Shown here in pieces: positions 40,271 through 60,047 of a DNA stretch of 64,000 bases. Origin of the DNA: Bacteroidota bacterium (GTDB taxonomy: Bacteria > Bacteroidota > Bacteroidia > 2-12-FULL-35-15); contig CANNHN010000010.1 in assembly GCA_947504725.1 (NCBI GenBank), forward strand, positions 1-64,000, in the 5' to 3' direction. The notes under the pieces were generated by a model, which saw only the letters and a list, made by a program, of their open reading frames with translations, ran no database searches and was not told the origin of the DNA. Within the stretch, counting starts at the first letter, position 1. Each line of letters opens with the position of its first letter. The translations under genes were made by a program, and so were the position numbers.

Positions 40271-42043
40271 TTAAAAACAATATTTATTTTCAGCAATTAA
40301 CTTAGCAGAAATGTTTCTTCGTGCTTCTGTTGTATTTAATGGTTCTGTCTTTGTAAAACGTTTTAAGCCCATTAACATTGCTTTTTGTTCATCACCTGTA
40401 GCAAATGAATTGATTGCTTCTTTTCCTGATTTGTGAATTCTGTCGGCTGCATCGTTGATATAAACACGCATGATGTCCAATTGCTCTTTGCATGCTGCTT
40501 CACCTTTTAAAGAAACAAGTTTCTCAACGCGTAGTTGTAATGATTCAGAAACATACGTTTCAATAATCATGTCAGCTAAGTTCATTAAAATTTCTTGTTC
40601 TTTTCCTAATTGCATCATCAGCTTTTGAACAGCAGCACCAGCCACCATCAATACTGATTTTTTAAATCCTGTTACATATTTTTTCTCGTTGGAGAATGTT
40701 GTTGTTTCACCTGCTGAAAAATCAGGAATACCCATCAATTCTGCTGCAACTGCTTGTGCTGGTCCCATCAAATCCAATTCACCTTTCATGGCACGTTTTA
40801 ACATCATGTCAACCGTTAGCATTCTGTTAATTTCATTCGTGCCTTCAAAAATTCTGTTGATGCGAGCATCACGGTAAGCTCTGTCCATCGGAGCTTCTGC
40901 GCTGTATCCCATTCCGCCATAAATTTGAACACCTTCGTCCACAACATAATCTAACACTTCTGATCCATGTACTTTTAAGATGGCTGCTTCTACAGCAAAT
41001 TGTTCAACTCCCTTAAGTTTTGCCTTTGCTTCATCCATTCCGCCTTCAATTAAAGATTTAGTTGCATCTTCAATATTCTGACTTGCTCTATAAATTGCTG
41101 ATTCGCTTGCATAAATTCTAATCGCTTGTTCTGCTAGTTTGTGACGAATGGCTCCGTATTTTGAAATTGATCTGCCAAATTGTTGGCGTTCATTTGCGTA
41201 TTTCACCGAAAGCGTACATGTCTCTTTGCTTCCACCAATTGCAGCACCAGCAAGTTTTACGCGACCTAAATTCAAAATGTTAACAGCTATTTTAAATCCA
41301 TTTTGTCTTTCTGATAGTAAATTTTCAACTGGAACCTTACAATCGTTAAAGAAAACTTGACGCGTTGAACTTCCTTTGATTCCCATTTTATGTTCTTCTG
41401 GATTTAAAGAAATTCCACCAAATGTTTTTTCTACAATAAATGCAGATAAATTTTCATCGTCATCAATTTTAGCGAATACAGTATAGATATCTGAGAAACC
41501 ACCATTGGTGATCCACATCTTTTGTCCGTTTAATATATAATGTTTTCCATCTGCAGAAAGTTTTGCATTTGTTTTTCCTGAATTGGCATCTGATCCAGCA
41601 CTTGGTTCTGTCAAGCAATAGCAAGATTTCCATTCACCACTAGCCAACTTTGGAATGTATTTTGCTTTTTGTTCTTTTGTTCCATAATATAAGATCGGAA
41701 GTGTACCAATTCCTGTGTGAGCAGAAATAGCAACTGCAAATGAATGTCCTGCACCTAATATTTCTGTTGCCAACATAGAAGTTGTAAAGTCTTTTCCGAA
41801 TCCACCATATTCTTCAGGAACAGAAATCCCTAAAAGTCCAAGTTCTCCTGCTTTGTTAAGCAAGTCAACCATTAAACCTTCTTCTTGCGCATCAATACGA
41901 TCTAATTTGTCCCAAACATTTTGAGCTAAAAAATCGTGACAAGTTTGAGCAATCATCAATTGTTCTTCGTTCCATTCTTCTGGAATAAAAACATCTTTTG
42001 CTTCTGTTTCTTTGATAAGGAATTCTCCACCTTTTAATGACAT
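40271..42043 (-). CDS. Acyl-CoA dehydrogenase (long-chain type)
   Basis: The protein is 590 residues, about 200 longer than short-chain dehydrogenases, with the extra C-terminal helical domain of VLCAD-like enzymes. The signatures CYCLTEPSAGSDANS and QIYGGMGYSAEAPMDRAYRDARI are present, and the catalytic Glu lies in RIFEGTNEINR. It catalyses the first, FAD-linked step of fatty acid beta-oxidation. It is the last gene of the MarR-HADH/ECH-thiolase-ACAD operon and lies 13 bases from the iteron-bounded element that separates it from the thiolase. Confidence 0.93.
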   Translation of the reverse strand: MSLKGGEFLIKETEAKDVFIPEEWNEEQLMIAQTCHDFLAQNVWDKLDRIDAQEEGLMVDLLNKAGELGLLGISVPEEYGGFGKDFTTSMLATEILGAGHSFAVAISAHTGIGTLPILYYGTKEQKAKYIPKLASGEWKSCYCLTEPSAGSDANSGKTNAKLSADGKHYILNGQKMWITNGGFSDIYTVFAKIDDDENLSAFIVEKTFGGISLNPEEHKMGIKGSSTRQVFFNDCKVPVENLLSERQNGFKIAVNILNLGRVKLAGAAIGGSKETCTLSVKYANERQQFGRSISKYGAIRHKLAEQAIRIYASESAIYRASQNIEDATKSLIEGGMDEAKAKLKGVEQFAVEAAILKVHGSEVLDYVVDEGVQIYGGMGYSAEAPMDRAYRDARINRIFEGTNEINRMLTVDMMLKRAMKGELDLMGPAQAVAAELMGIPDFSAGETTTFSNEKKYVTGFKKSVLMVAGAAVQKLMMQLGKEQEILMNLADMIIETYVSESLQLRVEKLVSLKGEAACKEQLDIMRVYINDAADRIHKSGKEAINSFATGDEQKAMLMGLKRFTKTEPLNTTEARRNISAKLIAENKYCF

Positions 42044-42056
42044 AGTTTTTTGAATT

Positions 42057-42492
42057 AGTATCAGGTATCAAGTATCAGGTATCAGGATGTTTGTAAAACG
42101 GACTTTTTCAATCCATTTATCATCCTCTGAACTTTACATACCCTTTCGGTTAGTAATTGTGTTTGTTCTTTAGTTATATAATTAAATTCACTCGATAATA
42201 ATAGTTGTGTTTCTAGCTCAAAAGCTGATCCTAGCGCAATATTCAAAAATTGATTAAAATCTTTATCAGTTCCTCTGCCAGCACCTTCTGCAATATTACT
42301 TGGTATTGAAATTGAACAACGATTTATTTGAGAGATTAATCCGTATTTTTCTTCATTCGGAAAACTTTTTGTAGTAGTATAAACTTCCTTTGTCAACGCC
42401 ATTGCTTCTTGCCAAACTTTTAGTTCTTTAAAATTATGCATAAATATTTTTTATTTTTTTGTCTTGATACCTGATACTTGCTACCTGATACT
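42057..42492. mobile_element. 436-bp element: four-helix-bundle gene between inverted heptamer-iteron ends
   Basis: The left end (42057-42084) is four 7-bp units, alternating AGTATCA and GGTATCA. The right end (42465-42492) is the inverted copy, with one changed base (GGTAGCA). The ends match at 27 of 28 positions. The only gene inside runs on the minus strand: its ATG is 21 bases inside the right end and its TGA stop lies in the last unit of the left end. No transposase or target duplication is visible. It sits exactly between the thiolase stop (42495) and the acyl-CoA dehydrogenase start (42043). A partial copy of the right end occurs at 59256-59280. Confidence 0.7.
42082..42441 (-). CDS. 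Four-helix-bundle protein (23S rRNA intervening-sequence protein family)
   Basis: The protein is 119 residues. FKELKVWQEAMALTKEVY, EEKYGLISQINRCSISIPSNIAEG and FLNIALGSAFELETQLLL are the conserved blocks of the IVS-encoded four-helix-bundle family (IPR012657/PF05635), first known from insertions in 23S rRNA genes and related to the Avd accessory proteins of diversity-generating retroelements. The function is unknown; the fold has a positively charged face suited to nucleic acids. The stop codon TGA is supplied by the left terminal repeat. The gene interrupts a beta-oxidation operon in the same orientation, so it is transcribed with it. Confidence 0.92.
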   Translation of the reverse strand: MHNFKELKVWQEAMALTKEVYTTTKSFPNEEKYGLISQINRCSISIPSNIAEGAGRGTDKDFNQFLNIALGSAFELETQLLLSSEFNYITKEQTQLLTERVCKVQRMINGLKKSVLQTS

Positions 42493-42494
42493 TT

Positions 42495-43670
42495 TTACAG
42501 CATTTCGAATATACCTGCAGCACCTTGACCGGTACCTACACACATACTTACAATTCCGTATTTTTTATTCTGACGTTTTAATTCTGAAAATAACTGAACC
42601 GATAATTTCGCTCCGGAACAACCCAATGGATGTCCAAGTGAAATTGCTCCGCCATTCACATTCACAATGTTTTGATTGATGTTTAATTCTCTGCAAACAG
42701 CTAATGATTGTGAAGCAAAAGCTTCGTTTAATTCAATTAAATCTATTTGACCTAAATTCATTCCTGCTAATTTCAAAGCTTTAGGAATAGCAGCAACTGG
42801 ACCGATTCCCATAATTCTAGGAGGAACACCTGCCGCAGCAAAACTCACCATTCTCGCAATTGGTTTTAAATTATTTTCTTTTAAAAATTTCTCGCTTACA
42901 ATCATTACGAATGCTGCTCCGTCACTTGTCTGGGACGAATTTCCTGCAGTTACACTTCCTTTTGCATCAAACACTGGTTTTAATTTTGCCAATGCTTCAA
43001 GTGTTGTATCGGCACGCGGACCTTCATCTGTATCAATAATAAAATCTCTAGTTTTCTTTTTTTCGTTTTCGTCAAGATATGTTTCAGAAATTTTAACAGG
43101 AACAATTTCGTTTTTGAATTTACCTTCTTTGATAGCTTTCATTGCTTTCATGTGAGAATTGAATGCAAATGCATCTTGGTCTTCGCGACTAATCTTATAT
43201 TCATTCGCAACTGCTTCTGCAGTTAATCCCATTCCCCAATAATGATCTGGATGAGCAAGTGCGACACCAGCATGTGGAACAATTCTCCATCCGCCCATCG
43301 GAATTAAACTCATGCTTTCTGCTCCACCAGCAACAATACAATCTGCCATACCCGCATGAATTTTTGCAGCTGCGATAGCAATTGTTTCTAAACCTGAAGC
43401 ACAATATCTGTTTACTGTTACTCCAGCAACTTTATCAGTATTGAATGCCATTAACGAAATTAATCTCGCCATGTTCAAACCTTGTTCTGCTTCGGGCATT
43501 GCGTTTCCAACAATCAAATCATCTACTTGATCGTGTGCAATGTTTGGAACACTTGCCATCAAATGCTTGATAACATCTGCTGCCAAATCATCTGGGCGAG
43601 TGAATCTAAATCCACCTCTGTTTGCTTTTCCTACTGCGGTTCTAAAACCAGCTACTATAAATGCGTTCAT
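42495..43670 (-). CDS. fadA: Acetyl-CoA C-acyltransferase (3-ketoacyl-CoA thiolase)
   Basis: The protein is 391 residues, standard thiolase II length. The acylated Cys90 is in NRYCASGLETIAIAA. The catalytic His is in SLGHPLGCSGAK and the second Cys in MCVGTGQGAAGIFE. It releases acetyl-CoA in the last step of beta-oxidation. It starts 4 bases after the HADH/ECH gene, so the two encode the trifunctional-type pair. The inverted terminal repeat of the four-helix element begins two bases after its stop. Confidence 0.94.
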   Translation of the reverse strand: MNAFIVAGFRTAVGKANRGGFRFTRPDDLAADVIKHLMASVPNIAHDQVDDLIVGNAMPEAEQGLNMARLISLMAFNTDKVAGVTVNRYCASGLETIAIAAAKIHAGMADCIVAGGAESMSLIPMGGWRIVPHAGVALAHPDHYWGMGLTAEAVANEYKISREDQDAFAFNSHMKAMKAIKEGKFKNEIVPVKISETYLDENEKKKTRDFIIDTDEGPRADTTLEALAKLKPVFDAKGSVTAGNSSQTSDGAAFVMIVSEKFLKENNLKPIARMVSFAAAGVPPRIMGIGPVAAIPKALKLAGMNLGQIDLIELNEAFASQSLAVCRELNINQNIVNVNGGAISLGHPLGCSGAKLSVQLFSELKRQNKKYGIVSMCVGTGQGAAGIFEML

Positions 43671-57509: not shown

Positions 57510-59285
57510 TTATTTGTTTGAATAAACTTTTTCACCATTCAGATACGTAAAAATTACTTTTGTTTTTGGAACTTCATCTATGTTACAATTCATAATATCA
57601 TTTTCCATTATTACAAAATCAGCAAATTTTCCAATTTCAATACTTCCTTTTTCTTTTTCTTCAAAGTTAGCATAAGCTCCCCAAATAGTCATTCCGCGTA
57701 TTGTGTTTTCTCTCGAAAGGGCATTCTCCATTTGAAAGCCACCTTCTGGAAATCCTTTTAAGTCTTTACGGGCAACTGCTGCATAAAACGTATACATCGG
57801 ATTAATATTCTCTACGGGGAAATCTGTTCCCAGAGCAATCACGCCAGATGCTTTTAGTAAATCGTTGTAAGCATACGCATATTTTACTCGCTCTTGTCCT
57901 AATCTATCTTTTGCCCAATACATATCGGATGTAGCATGAGTAGGTTGAACGGATGGAATTATTCCAGAATAAAATTTAAAATCTTCTTTATTTAATACTT
58001 GAGCATGTTCAACTCTCCATCTATAATTAATAGGTGGAGGGCTTGCTGTGCTTTTTTCAATAAGTGTGTTTAAATAGGTGAGAGAAATTAATCTTGCTGC
58101 AGAATCTCCAATACAATGAGTGTTCATTTGAAACTTATTGTCTTTCATTAATGTAGCTGCACTATCATAATGTTCTGGTTTACTTAATAAAAATCCTTGT
58201 CCTTCAGGTTTATCTGAATAGGGGTGAAGTAAACAGGCTCCTCTTGAACCAAGAGCTCCATCGGCATAAAATTTAAAAGAACAAACATTTAATCGCTCAG
58301 TTTTATAAGTGCCGTTTTTTAAATAATAATTCGCATTTTCTTTGTTATCAGTTAACATAGCATATATGCGCATTTTCAGTTCTCCATTTTTTTGGAGCTC
58401 ATCAATATTGTCAACAATGATTTTTTCTAGTCCAGCATCATCAACAGTTGTTAATCCAACAGCAAAACAATCTTTTTGTGCGGCAAGTAAAGCTGTTTTG
58501 ATAGATTCTTTTGATGGTTTTGGGATTTTAGTTTTAATGAGGTCTACAGCATTATCAATCAGAATTCCGCTTGGTATAGAAAGAGGATATTGAATTGGTT
58601 TTGTTTCCCCTCCGTATTCAAATTTCAACCAATCATATTTTTCTCCTTCTTCTTTTTTGATTAAATCAACTTCAATTACTCCGCCAGAAATTTTTGTGTC
58701 AATTCCAATGTTAGCTTTTTTAAGAGCAGTGCCGTTAGCAATGGCAGCATGCCCGTCAACTCGCTCTAGAAAAACAGGAGTGTTTGGAAATAATTTTTCC
58801 AATTCATAGCGCGTTGGATATTCTTTTACATTCCAATCGTTTTGATCCCAGCCGCGACCAACAATCCACTCCGATTTATTTGTTTTGGAGTATTCTACTA
58901 CTTTTTCAATTACTTCTTCAAATGATTTTGTTCCGACTAAATCCAATTCCTGCAGACCTTGTCCGTAGCCGTAAAAATGACAATGTGAATCGATGAAGCC
59001 AGGATAGACTGCTTTGCCCTCAGCATCAATCATTTCTTTCGCTTCGTATTTATTTAGGATATCTTCGTTTTTGCCAACAGCAACAAATTTCCCATCTTTA
59101 ATTGCAAAACTTTCTGCATTCGAAAAAGTTGAGTCAACTGTATAAACAAGAGCGTTGTGAACGATTAAATCAGCTTGTTGTTTTGATGAGCACGATACAA
59201 GTGTAATTAAGAAAATAATAGATGTACATCTCAAAAGTGTTGAGAAAAGTCTTGTGTCTTGATACTTGATACCTGATACTTTCAT
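57510..59285 (-). CDS. YtcJ-type amidohydrolase, lipoprotein
   Basis: The product is 591 residues. After a lipobox (ITLVSC) it has an amidohydrolase/metallo-dependent hydrolase fold: HNALVYTVDS, metal motif DSHCHFYGYG (HxH), WRVEHAQVL, and the late metal Asp in ALGTDFPVENINP. The YtcJ group hydrolyses amide or ring bonds; the substrate is unknown. The first 12 codons (MKVSGIKYQDTR) are a translation of the heptamer repeat at 59256-59280. A TTG at codon 18, giving a more usual lipoprotein signal (MRCTSIIFLITLVSC), may be the original start. It abuts the SDR gene with TAG-ATG. Confidence 0.86.
   Translation of the reverse strand: MKVSGIKYQDTRLFSTLLRCTSIIFLITLVSCSSKQQADLIVHNALVYTVDSTFSNAESFAIKDGKFVAVGKNEDILNKYEAKEMIDAEGKAVYPGFIDSHCHFYGYGQGLQELDLVGTKSFEEVIEKVVEYSKTNKSEWIVGRGWDQNDWNVKEYPTRYELEKLFPNTPVFLERVDGHAAIANGTALKKANIGIDTKISGGVIEVDLIKKEEGEKYDWLKFEYGGETKPIQYPLSIPSGILIDNAVDLIKTKIPKPSKESIKTALLAAQKDCFAVGLTTVDDAGLEKIIVDNIDELQKNGELKMRIYAMLTDNKENANYYLKNGTYKTERLNVCSFKFYADGALGSRGACLLHPYSDKPEGQGFLLSKPEHYDSAATLMKDNKFQMNTHCIGDSAARLISLTYLNTLIEKSTASPPPINYRWRVEHAQVLNKEDFKFYSGIIPSVQPTHATSDMYWAKDRLGQERVKYAYAYNDLLKASGVIALGTDFPVENINPMYTFYAAVARKDLKGFPEGGFQMENALSRENTIRGMTIWGAYANFEEKEKGSIEIGKFADFVIMENDIMNCNIDEVPKTKVIFTYLNGEKVYSNK
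59256..59280 (-). repeat. Solo end of the heptamer-iteron element
   Basis: Read on the minus strand it is AGTATCA, GGTATCA, AGTATCA, then AGACACAAG. The inner junction GTCTTGATAC (plus strand) is the same as at the right, gene-5' end of the element at 42057-42492, while the left end of that element lacks it. No four-helix-bundle gene is nearby, so this is a relic or an independent copy of that end. Confidence 0.75.
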
Positions 59286-60047
59286 CTATTTACGAAGTGT
59301 AGTTGTTGCATTTGCTTGAACTGTCGGCATTATAACTATGTCGTTGATGTTTACATGTGGCGGACGAGTTGCTACCCAATACACTGTTTCAGCAATGTCT
59401 TCTGGTAGTAGTGGTTGTAATCCTTTGTAAACATTTTTTGCTCTTTCTTCATCTCCATTAAAACGAACAATAGAAAATTCTGTTTCCACCATTCCAGGAT
59501 TAATTGCTGTTACTTTAATATTGTGAGAAAGTAAATCAATTCGCATTCCTTTGCTCAGTGCATCTACTGCATGCTTGGTTGCGCAATACACATTTCCGTT
59601 GGCATACACTTCTTTTCCAGCAATGGAACCAATGTTGATGATATGTCCGTAACCATTGTTGATCATAATGGGAGCAATGTTGCGTGTCATGTAGATTAAT
59701 CCTTTGATGTTGGTATCAATCATACGTTCCCAATCATTTACATTTCCTTCTTGAATGGTGTTTAATCCAGCTGCTAATCCGGCATTGTTTAATAGCACAT
59801 TGATTCTTTTCCAGTGATCAGGAATTGAACTAATCACCGTTTCTACTTCATTTAAATTGCGCACATCAAAATTTAATACAAGTACATCAATAGCATAAGT
59901 CGATTTGAGGTATTGAGAAAATTCATCCAAGCGTTCTTTTCTTCTGCCAGTAATAATAATATTATAACCATTCTTTGCGAATAGTTCAGCACTTGCTTTT
60001 CCTATCCCCGCAGTTGCGCCAGTAATGAATGCTATTTTATTGTCCAT
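59286..60047 (-). CDS. SDR-family NADP-dependent oxidoreductase (YdfG-like)
   Basis: I chose the ATG at 60047 (MDNKIAFITGATAGIGKASAELF, 253 residues). The frame is open to 60077, but a TAtaTTTG box at 60077-60084 places the transcript start downstream of that codon. The cofactor motif TGATAGIG and the active-site YCATKHAVDALSKG (YxxxK) are intact, with NNAGLAAG and INIGSIAG. It belongs to the 3-hydroxy acid/serine dehydrogenase-like cluster. The substrate is unknown. Confidence 0.9.
   Translation of the reverse strand: MDNKIAFITGATAGIGKASAELFAKNGYNIIITGRRKERLDEFSQYLKSTYAIDVLVLNFDVRNLNEVETVISSIPDHWKRINVLLNNAGLAAGLNTIQEGNVNDWERMIDTNIKGLIYMTRNIAPIMINNGYGHIINIGSIAGKEVYANGNVYCATKHAVDALSKGMRIDLLSHNIKVTAINPGMVETEFSIVRFNGDEERAKNVYKGLQPLLPEDIAETVYWVATRPPHVNINDIVIMPTVQANATTTLRK

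Follow-up and report, generated by a model that had tools for sequence, protein, structure and literature searches.

A PF05635 gene enclosed by inverted heptad arrays, which we examined in an operon of a Bacteroidota bacterium, is best explained as one member of a widespread protein-plus-repeat system that would behave like REP/RAYT and be built on an Avd-like pentameric ring. We give this reading a probability of about 0.6. It rests on the association of such genes with such arrays, on heptads that are specific to each locus, on a five-fold count of units, and on the sense placement, dispersal and turnover at shared junctions of the arrays, all of which are read directly from sequence. The window, that is, the whole stretch of DNA analysed, comprises 64,000 nucleotides (contig CANNHN010000010.1, positions 1 to 64,000), and the features discussed are located in Table 1.

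Table 1. Positions in the window of the element, its host operon genes and a gene-less array
Feature	Position	Strand	Description
Left heptad array	42056..42086	+	NRG at 42056 TAG, 42063 AGG, 42070 AAG, 42077 AGG, 42084 AGG
PF05635 gene (23S_rRNA_IVP / S23 family)	42082..42441	-	119 aa, four-helix-bundle protein, Avd-like fold
Right heptad array	42463..42493	-	Five in-phase NRG (AAG, AGG, AAG, AGG, AAG), inward on minus strand
Thiolase, upstream host operon gene	42495..43670	-	391 aa
Acyl-CoA dehydrogenase, downstream host operon gene	40271..42043	-	590 aa
Gene-less TATCA array (L238)	59246..59288	-	Six NRG motifs; behind stop codon, sense orientation

The element and its host operon

The element ends in two inverted arms (42057-42087 and 42462-42492), each 31 nt long; they are 94% complementary and 374 nt apart. 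The near-perfect inverted ends of the original prediction were thus confirmed, at slightly more than the 28 bp first reported. Units in the arms alternate between AGTATCA and GGTATCA, as had been noticed, and when an arm is read as N-R-G-N-N-N-N, five NRG motifs stand in phase in it instead of the four units previously counted. The motifs of the left array read inward; this array lies 3' of the PF05635 gene and overlaps its stop codon. The right array lies 5' of the gene, directly behind the stop codon of thiolase. As the ATG of the PF05635 gene is 20 nt from the right arm and its stop codon lies inside the left arm, the gene fills the space between the ends, as predicted. The right array is ~1 nt from the thiolase stop codon and the left array 12 nt from the acyl-CoA dehydrogenase ATG, so that the element occupies the whole interval from the thiolase stop to the acyl-CoA dehydrogenase start, and the precise fit between operon stop and start codons also holds. 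The operon order (MarR, hydroxyacyl-CoA dehydrogenase, thiolase, acyl-CoA dehydrogenase) is retained in ~30 genomes of the same genus.

Assignment of the window protein to the IVS family PF05635 was borne out by a score of 142.9 bits (curated cut-off 33.8) over positions 1-106 of 106, and the protein scored 130.4 bits against TIGR02436. No second PF05635 gene was found in the genome, which is 3.4 Mb in size and 99.6% complete. The unit consists of this single gene and its paired inverted heptad ends, with no recognisable enzyme encoded in it, in agreement with the earlier view that it carries no transposase. Near the element, no Rfam match at or above the gathering score was found, and searches of PADLOC and of phage records gave no match.

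Inverted heptad arms at PF05635 loci

We surveyed 125 non-redundant PF05635 loci, drawn from relatives and GTDB genomes and selected by similarity to the window protein. Each was scored by the best ungapped inverted repeat between its two flanks, with cross-locus flanks, shuffled flanks and ordinary ORFs as controls. The 125 PF05635 loci had a median score of 16.5, whereas cross-locus pairs and control ORFs both had a median of 8.5. A score above 13.5 was reached by 67% of PF05635 loci, 3.2% of cross pairs and 0 shuffled flanks. Arms that were both inverted and of period 7 flanked 82 of the 125 PF05635 genes versus 2 of 135 ordinary ORFs at the same loci (Fisher p=2e-32); about a third of the PF05635 loci failed this strict test. 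Identity within arms was 0.68 at both lag 7 and lag 14, 0.65 at lag 21 and ~0.25 at nearly all other lags. The arms of a locus agreed better in register (0.862) than when shifted by one unit (0.725), indicating that each end as a whole is an inverted copy of the other.

Inverted arms were present at all plasmid copies (11/11; nine in cyanobacteria, the others in Azospirillum and Gemmatirosa, together three phyla), where the units include GGGAACA, GGGAGTA and TTTTAGC. More distant four-helix paralogues also have inverted 7- or 8-base arrays. PF05635 genes therefore do sit between inverted pairs elsewhere, and the pairing around most of them speaks against the possibility, raised with the original prediction, that such repeats are never paired at other loci. 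We regard it as practically certain that the association of PF05635 genes with inverted heptad arrays is general. Neighbours were on the same strand in 94% of cases at PF05635 loci versus 81% in the controlled comparison (p=0.003), a real if modest effect, and 3 of the 9 annotated cyanobacterial plasmid copies are antisense to their neighbours; orientation is therefore not a main argument. On plasmids of Pseudanabaena and Anabaena (L219, L223), a heptad-armed PF05635 gene lies between cas6 and cas4 in CRISPR operons.

Heptad identity and the protein

The heptads vary by locus (AGTATCA, AGATTTG, AGTTATT, AGTAGAA, GGTTACA and others) and are the same at both ends of one locus. At the six PF05635 loci of genome G035, an end scored 13 to 24.5 against its own other end, and a mean of 8.9 (maximum 12) against the ends of the other loci. 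Many genomes contain several PF05635 genes with mutually unrelated heptads. Among 92 loci, heptad distance was correlated with protein distance (Mantel r=0.356; permutation maximum 0.191), a correlation that stems mostly from close relatives; heptad distance was 0.44 where proteins were <20% different and ~1.9 beyond 50%. This covariation lends support, at the level of sequence comparison, to the earlier proposal that the protein recognises the repeats, and we consider it quite likely that each PF05635 protein recognises its own cognate heptad arrays. Alignment of the units gave one common motif, N-A/G-G-N-N-N-N (N-R-G-N-N-N-N). The innermost unit of an arm is often AAGACT(T) and is better conserved across loci than the others (e.g., L133, L140, L150 and L174).

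Five units per array and the protein fold

Array length was taken as the number of in-phase NRG motifs. Exactly five motifs formed the peak among left ends (37/91), right ends (35/91) and gene-less arrays (39/79). When pooled, 111 of the 232 arrays with at least three motifs had exactly five, compared with 19% under a Poisson distribution of similar mean; this count takes in the final NRG, and many arrays consist of four full heptads and a triplet only. Expanded arrays of 12, 34 and 17 units at L007, L223 and L321, respectively, suggest slippage at otherwise five-unit arrays.

The two members of PF05635 in the PDB, 2gsc and 2rld, have five chains each, and the title of the 2gsc paper, as it appears in the reference list of PMC10053308, speaks of five four-helix bundles. 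The protein of 2gsc is XCC0516, a PF05635 protein from a Xanthomonas species that has GGGAATC arrays. An AlphaFold model of the window protein (mean pLDDT 96.3) has the four-helix-bundle fold of 2gsc and 2rld, with a Z of 21.5 against 2gsc. The suggested relationship to Avd was upheld by a Z of 15.6 between this model and Avd in the solved DGR ribonucleoprotein, and the window protein also matched the PHROG Avd family (4.4e-08). By analogy with the five chains in 2gsc and 2rld, the window protein would be a pentamer. As arrays peak at five motifs and solved members have five chains, a ring with one unit per subunit is the natural hypothesis, and five-to-five binding, with one heptad for each subunit, is a prediction that we marginally favour. 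A precedent for reading of this kind is TRAP, whose ring binds regularly spaced NAG repeats, one to each subunit.

Dispersed arrays without a gene

In the source genome, the pattern GTATCANGTATCA has 40 exact occurrences, which we counted as 25 separate arrays among the sites listed, versus 0 of the reversed pattern. Together with the inverted-repeat scores given above, this shows that the arrangement is not a product of chance. An intact TATCA-type element occurs in three genomes, in which GTATCANGTATCA counts were 40, 43 and 30; counts were 0-8 in the remaining 33 genomes, among them G020, whose element has degenerate arms. GAGAT arrays were commoner where a GAGAT-type gene occupies the neighbouring junction (p=0.001). 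G012 and G034 are among the exceptions: GAGAT arrays are common there and no GAGAT-type gene was detected.

The arrays have a preferred place. Forty-one of 79 gene-less arrays start within 15 nt after a stop codon in sense orientation and 10 lie just before a start codon; 28 belong to neither class, and 0 were classed as antisense behind a stop codon. In PF05635 elements, the upstream stop codon (TAG) frequently doubles as the first unit (15/58), and the next start codon is usually no more than ~13 nt beyond the array. The median distance from arrays to the PF05635 start codon is 28 nt. The occurrence of gene-less single and paired arrays behind stop codons genome-wide indicates a repeat system, not just one element. 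Three loci of the source genome (L033, L040 and L054) have convergent array pairs around terminator-like hairpins, and each of these arrays follows the stop codon of a gene of its own.

Turnover at shared junctions

The original prediction called for an alignment of orthologous thiolase/acyl-CoA dehydrogenase junctions with and without the insert, and both states were seen. In four species the gene at this junction is of the TATCA type; three carry a TTAGAT-type gene, which is broken in one of them, two retain remnants, and G003 and other close relatives lack the element. For its TATCA- and TTAGAT-type genes, independent insertion was not distinguished from orthology with a heptad switch (AU p=0.43). 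The copy at this junction may be old. The hydroxyacyl-CoA dehydrogenase/thiolase junction carries GAGAT-type genes in nine relatives (L092, L093, L095-L097, L110, L115, L117 and L120), which form a separate monophyletic PF05635 lineage, and a plain 7-bp spacer in the source genome. Other occupants were observed at the same junction. An apparent nucleotidyltransferase and HepT-like pair, possibly a toxin-antitoxin, is present in G026 (L111 site B) with no PF05635 element, and an unrelated ORF with TTGGATA-type heptads at its right end only is present in G005 (L100 site B).

Arrays, too, are cleanly gained or lost between close relatives. At junction C1:495394, G000 and G035 have a TATCA hairpin without a gene, whose place is taken by one of the TAGTTGT type in G007 and by hairpins of 8-base units in G003 and G025. 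The C1:498961 arrays are present in G000 only. The orthologues of G000 C1:495394 at L252 and L254 are hairpins of the 8-base units TAGAGAAT/TGGAAAAT and similar; octad families occur in Geobacter as well. Other inverted-repeat families (CACTAAGG, CTCTGTG and CCTCCCC types) were seen at the same operon junctions at L096, L101, L113, L119 and L120.

Alternative explanations

Arrays in sense orientation behind stop codons, and a median of 28 nt between array and PF05635 start codon, are also what a host regulator with its regulon would give. PF05635 would then be a TRAP-like, post-transcriptional protein that is not selfish; the arrays would be its sites in 3' UTRs and at operon junctions, and its own arrays would serve autoregulation. 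The heptad pairs of Geobacter have indeed been put forward as global regulator sites (PMC2700814). A regulon is nevertheless difficult to reconcile with heptad families that change at one junction between species, with the clean gain and loss of arrays between close relatives, with several PF05635 genes of unrelated heptads in many genomes, and with ordinary metabolic genes as neighbours. We therefore consider this explanation unlikely.

Pairing of the ends in mRNA had been proposed to make a hairpin. The predicted fold of the sense RNA does contain a 28-bp terminal stem (-97.4 kcal/mol, z -4.84), whereas the importance of this hairpin is weakened by the arm mismatches, which showed no G-U bias on the sense strand (74 versus 82); selection for an RNA stem is thus not supported. 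These values bear on an IVS-like RNA processing, in which the arms would form a stem cut by RNase III that releases the unit from the operon mRNA, with the stem being selected and not the heptad. The Coxiella IVS has such a 28-bp stem that is cut by RNase III (PMC4990558), and the better agreement of arms in register is consistent with it. In addition to the unbiased mismatches, however, a plain stem requires neither period 7, nor a common NRG, nor a five-fold count, and many arrays are unpaired, making RNA processing a quite improbable account of the arrays.

Inverted ends, gene-less copies and presence or absence at junctions could alternatively reflect a MITE-like DNA element, with the arrays as terminal repeats for a host or foreign transposase acting in trans and PF05635 as a passenger. 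Yet no target-site duplication was found at 55 loci (flanking direct repeats 2.51 versus 2.42 shuffled, with ends uncertain by a few bases). A search of the source genome for mobilising enzymes, which covered the Y1 transposase family PF01797 and the reverse transcriptase family RVT_1, gave no match. Heptad type tracks the PF05635 protein, and single unpaired arrays are common and sense-oriented. A MITE-like origin is thus less credible still. Of the minimal mobile unit originally envisaged, the compact arrangement of gene and ends stands; its mobility remains presumptive, with neither a target duplication nor a known mobilising enzyme. Simple-sequence slippage placing tandem 7-mers near a PF05635 gene by chance, to which the arrays clearly expanded to 12, 17 and 34 units might point, can be dismissed in view of the inverted match at both ends, the peak at five, the protein covariation and the near-absence at control ORFs (2/135).

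Proposed mechanism and significance

The preferred reading, a protein-plus-repeat system, would operate as follows. A PF05635 gene sits inside an inverted pair of arrays. Further arrays with its heptad, some single and some paired, are scattered over the genome, mostly right after stop codons. The protein would form a pentameric ring, like the solved family members, and this ring would read its own arrays as TRAP does, with one N-R-G-N-N-N-N unit per subunit and five per array. Its ligand would probably be single-stranded, because a 7-bp step is ill-suited to a five-fold ring on double-stranded DNA and because the arrays are on the sense strand. The leading candidate for this ligand would be mRNA just downstream of the stop codon, although we put the chance that RNA is the ligand at only even odds. 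More speculatively, persistence could resemble that of REP/RAYT, in that the ring might promote host replication, repair or RNA-templated events in which arrays are copied or rewritten. On this view, the intervening sequences of 23S rRNA, that of Coxiella among them, would be elements of this kind that have settled in rRNA.

Extended to the whole family, PF05635 proteins might be pentameric readers of lineage-specific five-heptad arrays in single-stranded nucleic acid, related to Avd and forming a new selfish or regulatory class that unifies IVS, STRR and the Xanthomonas and Geobacter heptads; we advance this generalisation tentatively. The results offer a concrete candidate ligand for PF05635, a family that has lacked a function ever since the first accounts of 23S rRNA intervening sequences, and they suggest which protein may be cognate to the heptad repeats of many bacteria. 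The five-to-five match predicts both stoichiometry and specificity. If true, it would mean a protein-plus-repeat system whose core is a ring and not a transposase, and might offer a context for the origin of the Avd ring in diversity-generating retroelements.

Comparison with known systems

The 23S rRNA IVS of Leptospira and Coxiella have in common with the window element one PF05635 ORF, a unit of ~430 nt and a ~28 bp terminal inverted repeat, and the window ORF likewise lies inside a terminal inverted repeat capable of a predicted stem. The window unit differs in location, as it lies between the thiolase and acyl-CoA dehydrogenase genes and not in rRNA. It further differs in having cognate heptads at both ends as well as dispersed gene-less arrays. 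Tandem GACAGAT heptads ahead of the Coxiella ORF correspond to CAGATGA in the NRG register, and the Coxiella authors linked these heptads neither to a protein nor to other loci (PMC4990558).

Heptads of Xanthomonas, of Nostoc and other cyanobacteria (STRR) and of Geobacter are like the window arrays in being dispersed, mostly intergenic and often in convergent inverted pairs. In Xanthomonas, the GGGAATC arrays are found a short way downstream of ORFs, frequently as convergent pairs, and most contain four full units; G-quadruplexes were suggested for them, and no cognate protein (PMC4692102). The class 3 sites of Geobacter metallireducens are paired, with five tandem heptads each and the partners on opposite strands; they were described without a named binding protein, and IHF/HU was suggested for the heptads MTYCTGA and GGGACCG (PMC2700814). 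As for the cyanobacterial STRR, PF05635 genes lie between such heptads on the cyanobacterial plasmids examined. Heptads were thus known piecemeal from Coxiella, Xanthomonas, Nostoc and Geobacter, and what is apparently new is their joining to PF05635; our search, made mostly among papers available without subscription, found no literature linking PF05635 to heptad arrays in general.

REP/REPIN sequences with RAYT have in common with the window element a protein gene between inverted copies of its own repeat and many gene-less extragenic copies. They differ in that RAYT is a Y1 (TnpA_REP) transposase, whereas the window protein belongs to PF05635 and is a putative pentamer, and in that their repeat is a hairpin with a GTAG-type tag, whereas the window repeat is a five-unit heptad array. 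Avd of diversity-generating retroelements has the same fold as the window protein and probably a common ancestry with it, but the window element has no reverse transcriptase, template repeat or variable repeat. TRAP is an analogy of working only, having an unrelated fold, 11 subunits and a shorter spacing than the predicted window ring. Cumulatively, these comparisons indicate that the element would work most like REP/RAYT, from which it is set apart by its protein, as it is from IVS by its location and from diversity-generating retroelements by the reverse transcriptase.
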